A DNA stretch of 64,000 nucleotides, from positions 124,001-188,000 of the forward strand of contig NZ_MWQI01000005.1 of NCBI RefSeq assembly GCF_002210345.1, in the 5' to 3' direction. Under the pieces are notes generated by a model. The model was given only the letters and a program-made list of their open reading frames with translations. It did not search any database and was not told the DNA's origin. The stretch's first letter is position 1. Every line of letters begins with the position of its first letter. Source of the DNA: Fibrobacter sp. UWB4 (lineage in GTDB: Bacteria; Fibrobacterota; Fibrobacteria; Fibrobacterales; Fibrobacteraceae). Position numbers and translations under genes: made by a program. Shown piece after piece: positions 15,057-53,046 of the stretch.

Positions 15057-16067
15057 GTGAAGAAAAATTCGAATTGGATCAAACGCGTTGTTTGCCTTTT
15101 GCCAATCTATGTTGCTATGCTTGTGGGATATCTATATTACGAAAAAAAAGTCGAAGAAAGCATTCGATATGATGACATGATTGCAATGACAAATAAATGC
15201 CTTCGGATTGGCGATTGGAAGTGCGCCGAGCATTATGTCCGGGAACTTTTAAAGTCGGAACCGAACGATACGAATTTGCAGATGCACATGGCTGGCATTC
15301 TCTTTGAACAGGAACGTTATAAAGAGTGCATCAATTACATTGAAACGTTGAGTTTCAAACATCAGGATTTAGATTACCTTGTTAAAAAGTCAAATGCTTT
15401 GGAACAGGAATTAAAAAATCTCGGCGTTGAAAAGTCCATGCATTTCCGCCTGGAATTTGACGGCGGCCCTTCGAAAAAAGACGTGATGGAAGCGCTTGCC
15501 GTTTTGGAAGTTGCCTACGATTCGATTAGTAATTTGTTCGACTTCTTGCCTGAAAACAAGATTAGCATTGTGCTGTATCAAGAAGAGGAATATCAGGGAA
15601 CGGGGCCGCGCCCGGACTGGGTCGCAGCCGTGTTTGACGGCAAGTTGCGCGTCCCGGTGAACATGATGGCTTATCGTGAAGTTTATCGCCCGGTGCTGTT
15701 CCATGAACTAACTCATTCATTTGTTCGTGCGATGACGCATGCAAATGTGCCTTGCTGGATGAACGAAGGAATTGCTCAGGTGATTGACGGCTCGCATAAC
15801 AATGAAGAACGCCCGGTGGGGGCGTATCCGACTGTCGAATCGTTAAGAAAATCTTTTGTCAAAGAGAAGGACTCGGCAACGGTGAAAAAACTTTATTGGT
15901 TCTCGAGACGGATGGTCGAAGAACTTTTGTGGCGTGATGGCGGCGGTCCGGATGCATTCCGCAAGTTTGCCAAGTGCTTGCAGGACCTTCGTGAGCTAGG
16001 GATGGATGGCTCCCTGAAAAAGCATTATGGAACAACCGCTCAGGATTTGTTGGAGTCTGTAAGATGA
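15057..16067 (+). CDS. Membrane-anchored TPR protein with gluzincin (peptidase MA-like) domain
   Basis: This 336-residue protein starts with GTG. Residues 10-27 form a membrane anchor (VVCLLPIYVAMLVGYLYY). Residues about 40-125 are helical and TPR-like (CLRIGDWKCAEHYVRELL, ILFEQERYKECINYIE). The catalytic part has HELTH at 216-220 and WMNEG with Glu237, the usual zinc-binding arrangement of gluzincin metalloproteases. The C-terminus (FRKFAKCLQDLRELG...HYGTTAQDLLES) is typical of peptidase MA-like proteins. It overlaps the asparaginase gene by four bases, so they form an operon. The target is probably periplasmic, but this cannot be shown from sequence. Confidence 0.82.
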   Translation: MKKNSNWIKRVVCLLPIYVAMLVGYLYYEKKVEESIRYDDMIAMTNKCLRIGDWKCAEHYVRELLKSEPNDTNLQMHMAGILFEQERYKECINYIETLSFKHQDLDYLVKKSNALEQELKNLGVEKSMHFRLEFDGGPSKKDVMEALAVLEVAYDSISNLFDFLPENKISIVLYQEEEYQGTGPRPDWVAAVFDGKLRVPVNMMAYREVYRPVLFHELTHSFVRAMTHANVPCWMNEGIAQVIDGSHNNEERPVGAYPTVESLRKSFVKEKDSATVKKLYWFSRRMVEELLWRDGGGPDAFRKFAKCLQDLRELGMDGSLKKHYGTTAQDLLESVR

Positions 16068-17080
16068 AAAATATCGTGATTTTAGCGACGGGCGGCACTA
16101 TTGCAGGCGCGGGCGAGCAAGGTAAGGATATTGGGTACAAGTCGGGGGCGATCAAGGCGCAAACGCTGATAGATGCCATCCCGGAATTGAAGAATGTGGC
16201 AAACATTTGCGTGGAGCAATTTTGCAATATCAATTCGGACGATGTCACTTCTGAAATCTGGATTGCTTTGGCGAAGCGGATTGAAGAACTCTTGCAGCGA
16301 AACGATGTTGACGGCATTGTGATCTTGCACGGGACCGATACGATGGAAGAAACGGCGTTCTTCCTGAGTCTGACATTGGATGGCTTTGGTTCGAGAGTCG
16401 TCGGGAATGTCGCGAAGCCCGTGATTTTGACCGGATCGATGCGACCTGCTACTGCCACAGAACCTGACGGCCCAGCAAACCTCCTCTTTGCCGTGAAAAG
16501 CGCTGTGTCATGCCCGCCACCGAGCGGGCATCACCTTCTCGTAAATGCGGAAAATACCGCAGGTGTTTACGTAGCCTTTGCTGGCAAACTGATGAACGCC
16601 CGTTCGGTGCAAAAAATTCATGCGAACGATTTGGATGCTTTTGCTGAATTGTCATGTCCGCCTACAACTTGTCATGCCCGCGAAGGCGGGCACCTCCCTC
16701 TCGAAAAAGCATTCGACATCTCGAATATGCGCGAATTGCCTCGCGTCTCTGTCCTCTACTTTAACGCTGATGCCGATGCAGAACTGGTGCGTTTTGCGGC
16801 TGAACGCTCGGCTGGGCTTGTCATTGCAGGCGCTGGCGCCGGTGAATTTTCTCGCGAATGGGCAGACGCTTTGTCGGATGTTGTTTCTAAAAATAAAATC
16901 CCCGTCGTGATTTCGACGCGAATCAATCGCGGTCGCATTGTCCCGGAGCAGCTCCTTGTGCCAGGAACGATTGCCGCTTACGATTTGCCTCCAGCCAAAG
17001 CCGCTGTGCTCTTGCGCCTTGCGCTAATCGTCACGACCGCCCCTGCCGCCATTCAAAAGTTCTATCAGAGGTATACATAG
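16064..17080 (+). CDS. L-asparaginase with two in-frame palindromic-repeat insertions
   Basis: This 338-residue protein hydrolyses L-asparagine to aspartate and ammonia. It has both catalytic-threonine motifs, ATGGTIAG (Thr12) and HGTDTMEETA (Thr91 region). There is no signal peptide, which points to a cytoplasmic enzyme. Two stretches do not fit the family: residues about 149-157 (SCPPPSGHH) and about 197-214 (SCPPTTCHAREGGHLPLE). The DNA beneath them is the same GTCATGCCCGC...GCGGGCATC palindrome that occurs between genes elsewhere in the window. Both insertions keep the frame. They lie after the active-site half, in a region that varies in length among asparaginases, so activity may be retained. 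Confidence 0.92.
   Translation: MKNIVILATGGTIAGAGEQGKDIGYKSGAIKAQTLIDAIPELKNVANICVEQFCNINSDDVTSEIWIALAKRIEELLQRNDVDGIVILHGTDTMEETAFFLSLTLDGFGSRVVGNVAKPVILTGSMRPATATEPDGPANLLFAVKSAVSCPPPSGHHLLVNAENTAGVYVAFAGKLMNARSVQKIHANDLDAFAELSCPPTTCHAREGGHLPLEKAFDISNMRELPRVSVLYFNADADAELVRFAAERSAGLVIAGAGAGEFSREWADALSDVVSKNKIPVVISTRINRGRIVPEQLLVPGTIAAYDLPPAKAAVLLRLALIVTTAPAAIQKFYQRYT
16506..16541. repeat. In-gene palindromic element 1 (asparaginase)
   Basis: ATGCCCGC (16510-16517) pairs with GCGGGCAT (16524-16531) around a 6-base loop, preceded by GTC and followed by CACCTTCTCG. It matches the intergenic copies at 31231, 49596 and 52966 in stem sequence and flanks. It is read in frame as SCPPPSGHHLL. Confidence 0.85.
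16651..16706. repeat. In-gene palindromic element 2 (asparaginase), one and a half copies
   Basis: A partial copy, GTCATGTCCGCC (16651-16662), is followed by a full one. In the full copy TGCCCGC (16675-16681) pairs with GCGGGCA (16686-16692), and the tail CCTCCCTCTCGAAAA matches the tail of the intergenic copy at 31251-31267. The region is read in frame with the asparaginase. Confidence 0.85.
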
Positions 17081-31224: not shown

Positions 31225-31230
31225 GGCGAT

Positions 31231-31262
31231 GTTATGCCCGGCTTGACCGGGCATCTCCCTCT
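31231..31262. repeat. Dispersed palindrome, GTCATGCCCGC family
   Basis: GTTATGCCCGG, loop CTTGA, CCGGGCATCTCCCT. The C-to-G change on one arm is matched by the opposite change on the other arm, so the stem is kept. Confidence 0.8.
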
Positions 31263-31272
31263 AGAAAATGTG

Positions 31273-31303
31273 AAAAGACCTGGCCGTGAGCCAGGTCTTT
31301 TTC
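31273..31303 (+). terminator. Rho-independent terminator of the lipoprotein/OmpA operon
   Basis: AAAAGACCTGGC (31273-31284), loop CGTGA, GCCAGGTCTTTT (31290-31301). Confidence 0.9.
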
Positions 31304-31631
31304 GTGTTAAGAAGTGAAAAATTCAAAAAAACTTGTTTTTTACGTCATTTTTAGCCTCTTTTGATTCTTTTTGACGTAAAATTTTAATGTTGTCTGCAAT
31401 AAAAAGGGCCTTTTTTAGCTTTTTGTGAGCGAAAATCTGCAAAAATGCTGCTTTGGGGATACAAAAACAGGGCTAAAAGCGAATTTTTAGCCCTGTTTAA
31501 TGCAAAATTTGATACTTTGTCTAAAAATTTACGTCAAAAACTCAGTTCTAGTTGCTTTTTTTACGTAAAAAAGCCCGAAAATCAAAAATTTGCTTTGAAA
31601 GTGCAGGTTTGGGCGCTTTCAATACAAATTC
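31304..31631. other. AT-rich convergent gap with 14-bp hairpin and TTTACGT(C/A)A motifs
   Basis: No gene is supported. A perfect 14-bp stem (31465-31478 with 31485-31498, loop GCGAAT) is followed on the minus strand by TTTTTG, so it may terminate metF. Four copies of a TTTACGTCA/TTTACGTAA-type motif occur: near 31338, 31371 (inverted), 31529 and 31559. Their role is unknown. Confidence 0.5.
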
Positions 31632-49239: not shown

Positions 49240-49595
49240 AACACAAGGGATCACCCGGGTCTCCCTGCCTGGGTGGTCCTTATCGTGTCCGCTTCGCTTT
49301 GGTTTAATAGAAAAACTCCGTCGGCGCTTTGCTCTCGCCAACACGGCACGCTTACGCCGTGCCGCTTATGGCTTACGGTGAGTCCGCTCGGCTCTTGTGC
49401 AATACAAGACTCCGTCTTCGCCTCACTCTCGCCAACACGGCACGCTTACGCCGTGCCGCTTATGGCTCATGGTGTGTCCGCTCGGCTCTTGTGCAAAGGA
49501 CAAGTTCCTTCTTCGCCTCGCTCTCGCCTTCGATGACTCGTCAATACGAGTCACCTCCGGCTCACGGCGTGTCCGCTTCGCTTCATGCTTGATTT
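49240..49595. repeat. Tandem repeat, about 94-bp period, with a different hairpin in each unit
   Basis: CTCTCGCC recurs at 49332, 49426 and 49521 and GTGTCCGCT-type motifs follow each hairpin, including one before the first CTCTCGCC. Units 1 and 2 share GGCAC-GCTTACG-CCGTGCC. Unit 3 has GACTCG-TCAATA-CGAGTC instead. The incomplete unit 0 has a CACCCGGG...CCTGGGTGG stem. The hairpin is kept while its sequence changes. Before it, 49136-49239 holds an (AC)n run and a GGGTGCG/CGCACCC hairpin. Reading frames across the repeats look accidental. Confidence 0.75.
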
Positions 49596-49622
49596 GTCAT
49601 GCCCGCCTTGAGCGGGCATCTC
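49596..49622. repeat. Dispersed palindrome, GTCATGCCCGC family
   Basis: GTCATGCCCGC, loop CTTGA, GCGGGCATCTCC. Same stem as the copies inside the asparaginase gene. Confidence 0.85.
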
Positions 49623-49655
49623 CATGTTCAAAAGACTTTTTAATACATTTATATT

Positions 49656-52950: not shown

Positions 52951-52965
52951 CCGCAAAATCTTATT

Positions 52966-52992
52966 GTCATGCCCGCCTCTGCACGGGCATTT
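52966..52992. repeat. Dispersed palindrome, GTCATGCCCGC family, after FISUMP gene
   Basis: GTCATGCCCGC, loop CTCT, GCACGGGCATTTCTTTTT. The T-run after the stem may let it act as a terminator here. Confidence 0.75.
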
Positions 52993-53046
52993 CTTTTTAA
53001 TGGTTGCCTAATAATTTTATATTTGTAGTCACAACAAGGAGTTTTT

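Follow-up and report, generated by a model that had tools for sequence, protein, structure and literature searches.

Two loops of an intact L-asparaginase gene from Fibrobacter sp. UWB4 contain in-frame segments which, with a probability of about 0.8, represent copies from a REP family of Fibrobacter, i.e., selfish or neutral elements copied in trans and tolerated in surface loops, with later gain, loss and exchange. The gene is located in a stretch of 64,000 nucleotides (the window). The element is a short palindrome of the form TTGTCATGCCCGC-loop-GCGGGCATCTCC, and the asparaginase reading frame holds two full copies and one partial copy. The copy number of the family, the conservation of its hairpin, the preservation of the reading frame and the differences among species were observed directly.

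Palindromes in the asparaginase gene and the window

Both asparaginase domains of the encoded protein were recognized in Pfam (PF00710, E 1.3e-51; PF17763, E 1.9e-21), and the residues that are invariant in an alignment across the family are kept. The dN/dS ratio of the gap-free body versus relatives is 0.09-0.13, and a value near 0.1 indicates an enzyme under purifying selection. All palindrome copies of the gene lie within its single open frame, in agreement with the preliminary description, in which the insertions were claimed to be in frame. AlphaFold predicts a confident fold (pTM 0.88), with low confidence at residues 109-113, 153-165 and 199-209; all three are variable loops, the latter two coincide with the inserts, and the inserts are predicted to be disordered. 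An Rfam search over the gene revealed no known structured RNA.

Copy 1 (GTCATGCCCGC-CACCGA-GCGGGCATC, 16507-16532) has a perfect 8-bp stem and is translated as VSCPPPSGHH (residues 148-157). Copy 2 (GTCATGCCCGC-GAAG-GCGGGCAC, starting at 16671, with the tail CTCCCTCTCGAAAA ending at 16707) is translated as CHAREGGHL (residues 203-211), such that the reading frames of the two copies (SCPPPSGHH and CHAREGGHL) differ. The second site had been described as a partial plus a full copy with a shared tail, and this arrangement was confirmed. The sequence TGTCATGCCCGC occurs exactly at 16506 and 16670, and with one mismatch at 16650. The partial copy, TTGTCATGTCCGCC, has a counterpart, TTGTCATGCCCGCC, in the sister species G013, and a codon comparison placed tails akin to CTCGTAAATGC after the palindromes at both asparaginase sites of sister species.

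Table 1. Asparaginase host gene and repeat elements in the window.
Feature	Positions	Strand	Remarks
L-asparaginase gene, intact, host of the inserts	16064..17080	+	ORF list; 338 aa; both asparaginase Pfam domains
Full REP, copy 1	16505..16537	+	Hairpin 16510-16531; model R2 45.8 bits, E 1e-11
Tail segment after copy 1	16538..16548	+	CTCGTAAATGC; codon comparison
Partial REP, 5' arm only	16649..16662	+	TTGTCATGTCCGCC; translated LSCPP
Full REP, copy 2, loop GAAG	16669..16699	+	Model R2 38.4 bits, E 2.2e-9
Tail of copy 2	16694..16707	+	CTCCCTCTCGAAAA; one change versus tail of 31231 copy
Intergenic REP, stem and loop diverged	31229..31260	+	Model R2 43.8 bits
Intergenic REP	49594..49625	+	Model R2 51.6 bits; core identical in G013
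Intergenic REP, stem shortened	52964..52996	+	Model R2 28.3 bits, E 3.3e-6

On the + strand of the window, the covariance model of the family (R2) detected exactly five full copies, two in the asparaginase gene and three between genes (E 1.5e-13 to 3e-6). Allowing up to one mismatch, GTCATGCCCGC matched eight times versus 1.2 expected, and none of 100 shuffles reached eight. The intergenic copies had been reported earlier at 31231, 49596 and 52966. Those at 49596 and 52966 (the latter with a shorter stem) were recovered as described, while the 31231 copy (GTTATGCCCGGC-TTGA-CCGGGCAT) is diverged and does not contain an exact GTCATGCCCGC, its tail (CTCCCTCTAGAAAA) matching the asparaginase tail except for one change.

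Other repeated sequences were observed near these copies. Repeated intergenic blocks (CTCTCGCCAACACGGCACGCTTACGCCGTGCCGCTTATGGCT) occupy positions 49330-49590, upstream of the 49596 REP, and are fewer in G013. An AT-rich block between genes (31300-31600), which contains TTTACGT(C)A motifs, is not found at the corresponding place in G013; short pieces resembling it occur elsewhere in the genome, and it is possibly another dispersed element.

The repeat family and its relation to known REPs

The census of the family was based on a 464-kb sample and on genome-wide searches. In the 3.58-Mb genome, 46 exact palindromes were found versus none for the reversed pattern, and a broader search of the sample gave 35 versus one in the reversed sequence, which extrapolates to approximately 270 per genome. 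Model R2 recognized at least 153 copies in the genome of the window (G000) and had matches in all 37 of the Fibrobacter species genomes, ranging from two (G020) to at least 118, a value at which the number of candidates scored per genome sets a limit; the rest of the phylum had almost none, mostly scattered and weak. The enrichment across the genome that had been proposed as a check is therefore evident. Chance palindromes in naturally variable loops would be in keeping with the varying length of both loops across the asparaginase family, but their probability is negligible: the same sequence recurs throughout the genome, the controls having given 0 and 1, R2 matches (lowest E 2.7e-12) lie within the asparaginase ORF in six further species, and the copy counts rule chance out.

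The stem consists of eight pairs, the first being AU in 37 of 39 and the second UA in 39 of 39, and its covariation comprises 41 double changes, a number attained in none of 500 shuffles. The consensus tag in the alignment is TTGTCAT (TGTC), in which the G and T of GTC are invariant and the C is present in at least 90%. Loops measure 3-6 bases, of which the 6-base CACCGA and CTCCGA are the commonest, the 5-base CTTGA and 4-base GAAG also being common. The unpaired tail is CTCC in most copies and CACC or CGCC in the rest. The copies are mostly intergenic, with a minority within genes, and close pairs are typically + then - (head-head, tags outside; four of five sampled pairs and the majority of some ten genome-wide). 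Each element has on average 4.41 of six frames open versus 4.39 in shuffles; this fits DNA that was not built to code, and an origin as a coding element was rejected on this count. A phage origin was likewise rejected, as phages gave no match and viral contigs no exact match. At one locus (L175:3667-3690), the last codons and the stop TAG of the upstream gene come from a REP, and the end of the gene differs in G013.

CGTC-tagged REPs carry an unpaired terminal tag (CGTC or TGTC, also CCTC), a stem of 8-9 bp beginning with A-T, a loop of 4-5 bases (other loops in some species) and an unpaired tail, mostly CCA; their dimers are mainly head-head, other arrangements being rare, and no transposase is associated with them (Di Nocera et al. 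2013, PMC3733652). The Fibrobacter elements are similar in the TGTC tag, the 8-bp stem starting with A-T, the head-head dimers, the heterogeneous stems and loops, the in-gene copies and the lack of an associated transposase in the PF01797 search. They differ in the tail (CTCC, CACC or CGCC versus CCA) and in the loop (3-6 bases, six being commonest, versus 4-5). Judged by these sequence features, they are REPs of a family very similar to those tagged with CGTC or TGTC; owing to the CTCC tail and the often longer loops, they are filed as a Fibrobacter family of the CGTC kind, outside the four published families.

The comparison with Rickettsia palindromic elements (RPEs) made in the preliminary description is apt in that RPE-4 and RPE-6 correspond to CGTC-4 and CGTC-1, respectively, as does Neisseria dRS3 to CGTC-1 (PMC3733652), but in-frame REPs are known from many bacteria: the same study reports CGTC REPs in frame within genes of several species, not Rickettsia only, as well as REPs that differ between two Xanthomonas species at nearly the same position in recB. 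RPE-1 is longer (~100-150 bp; about 150 bp in the review PMC10969869). As in Rickettsia, several families occur in frame, sometimes two per gene, in genes for functional proteins; here there are five copies in four genes, whose products are probably functional as judged by Pfam and dN/dS. In contrast, Fibrobacter belongs to another phylum and has a larger genome, only a minority of its copies are in genes, and its elements have no more open frames than shuffled sequence. The literature searched, mostly open papers, held no description of such repeats in Fibrobacter, as had been stated earlier, and PMC3733652 does not mention the genus. This is apparently the first report of in-frame REPs for the phylum Fibrobacterota, intragenic REPs themselves having already been published.

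GTAG-type REPs, which a RAYT transposase mobilizes, are also short hairpins that occur in inverted pairs (REPINs), and the other strand of the Fibrobacter element starts with GGAG. Such an affiliation is nevertheless very improbable, since the GTAG tag is absent and no RAYT was found in the genus, where the PF01797 (Y1_Tnp) search gave only strong IS200-type matches or fragments. In G000, the matches belong to an identical pair of IS200-type copies (L181, C1:280990; L182, C7:68792) with terminal hairpins of their own, and neither is flanked by the Fibrobacter REP; one REP lies ~1 kb from one of them, past another gene, and none is beside its identical twin.

In-frame copies across Fibrobacter species

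In the asparaginase tree, the seven species that bear inserts form one clade, apart from the short-loop species, and include all of the nearest relatives of G000. Sites 1 and 2 measure 9 and 12 residues in five species of the G007 type, versus 19 and 22 in G000, the outcome of the alignment with other Fibrobacter asparaginases that had been suggested earlier. The segments had been said to lack a counterpart in the family; they are indeed extra relative to the short-loop Fibrobacter proteins, but at site 2 the proteins of other phyla contain ~20-25 residues of unrelated sequence. An insert is present at site 1 in all seven species of the clade and at site 2 in six, always in frame, the exception at site 2 being G026, which lacks a palindrome there. 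Inserts are found in species with R2 counts near the scoring limit (G000, G013, G001, G018, G005 and G026), and are absent from G020 (2 copies), G012 (21), G025 (26), G007 (31), G030 (60) and G017 (70).

Other palindromes are inserted at one or both sites in six sister species, and insert length and palindrome vary from species to species. At site 2, the start GCTGAATTGTCAT and similar tails are common to G000, G013 and G001, although the cores differ (that of G001 being a different palindrome). The asparaginase L061 contains nested composites, and the copies at its two sites are alike in 104 of 115 positions. There are additional nested palindromes of other types, and in the asparaginase of G018 (L153) a third insert was observed in an N-terminal loop, encoding RSVILSEVEGARKN and apparently derived from a GTCATCCTGAGC-type palindrome.

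The inserts could be useful, the peptide or mRNA hairpin altering the stability, oligomerisation or expression of the asparaginase and being kept by selection. Their retention at site 1 in seven of seven species could reflect some use, and REPs elsewhere are thought to work as RNA elements (PMC3733652). We consider this explanation improbable: the peptides are almost completely different between sister species while the body of the enzyme is conserved, G026 dispenses with a palindrome at site 2, and disorder is predicted.

The asparaginase is not the only host. Five in-frame copies were found in four Pfam-supported genes of G000, encoding the asparaginase, an HrpB helicase, an FAD-dependent protein and a NUDIX protein. 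Four of the 35 copies of the 464-kb sample fall in such ORFs (asparaginase, two; HrpB helicase and FAD-dependent protein, one each), and the NUDIX copy was taken from the genome-wide list, outside these 35. Copies in ORFs that came from simple ORF calling and lacked Pfam support (L161, L167, L180, L166 and L011) were left out of the count, and the copy at L015 is near a probably misplaced start. The in-gene copies use both orientations and several frames, and in alignments the orthologues have shorter loops or other repeats at the same sites. The element of the FAD-dependent protein is common to G000, G013 and G018, and the loop is shorter in G009 and G003. In HrpB, the same element is present in G018 and absent from G013 and others. 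Elsewhere, short repeats (CCCTTCGACAGGGCTCAGGG, GGTTCGGCAGGCTCACCAACC and GACGAGAGACGAGAG) fill the same HrpB loop (L173:14927-17551 and orthologues), so that this loop is invaded by several repeat families.

The NUDIX gene provides the clearest comparison with short loops. Its loop is short in G009 and G016 and contains one element in G018; in G000 and G013, the element of G018 is joined by a second, different type of palindrome (GTCATCCTGAGC-like). In the G000 gene (L019:1204-1842, contig C3), palindromes of two families adjoin in one in-frame loop. The corresponding loop of G017 is a long repetitive stretch, ~60 residues of repeated TRDERGNTKNERRE.

Turnover and significance

At orthologous sites of G000 and G013, an element is shared, is present in one and absent from the other, or retains similar flanks around a core that is not the same. 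Four sites at which the two species differ showed no target duplication, which speaks against a MITE. Turnover of this type supports gain, loss and exchange of palindromes, as far as sequence comparison allows. A rather unlikely alternative is that each loop received a single old insertion, after which only the core was exchanged in place, either by recombination with other copies in the genome or through template switching at the hairpin, such that hardly any further insertions would be required. The intergenic 31231 element, whose core differs between G013 and G000 within similar flanks, the common start and tails at site 2, and the composite shared by both sites of L061 are all consistent with such exchange. 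However, whole elements and dimers are present or absent elsewhere between G000 and G013, there are additional nested palindromes of other types and the third insert site of G018, and exchange in place accounts for turnover and not for first arrival.

According to the preferred reading, of REP copies tolerated in surface loops, the elements would be selfish or neutral DNA that spreads through copying in trans, and most copies would persist between genes. Those within genes would survive only where the frame was kept and a surface loop was hit, and would be translated as short disordered linkers that leave the enzyme working. In the asparaginase, the first insertion would have occurred on the branch to the seven-species group, after which palindromes may have been added, removed and swapped in both loops, with selection on the enzyme preserving the frame. 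We infer that the inserts are neutral and that elements are both copied and exchanged in place. A more doubtful extension holds that the loops are lasting landing pads, whose cores are repeatedly replaced or nested by exchange, sister species differing in the hairpin-coded peptide at the same place; if true, REPs would drive the diversification of loops as an ongoing natural process.

The findings extend gene-invading CGTC-like REPs to the Fibrobacterota, whose Fibrobacter genomes of ~3.5 Mb indicate that in-gene REPs are not confined to intracellular bacteria with reduced genomes. They also carry a warning for annotation, in that such loops are repeats and not conserved sequence. The value of the case lies in a new phylum combined with related species having short, filled and refilled loops. 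In corresponding loops of housekeeping enzymes, the Fibrobacter species provide a graded series, from the short loop to one element, two and nested composites, which renders both the spread of REPs without a transposase and the neutrality of REP peptides testable.
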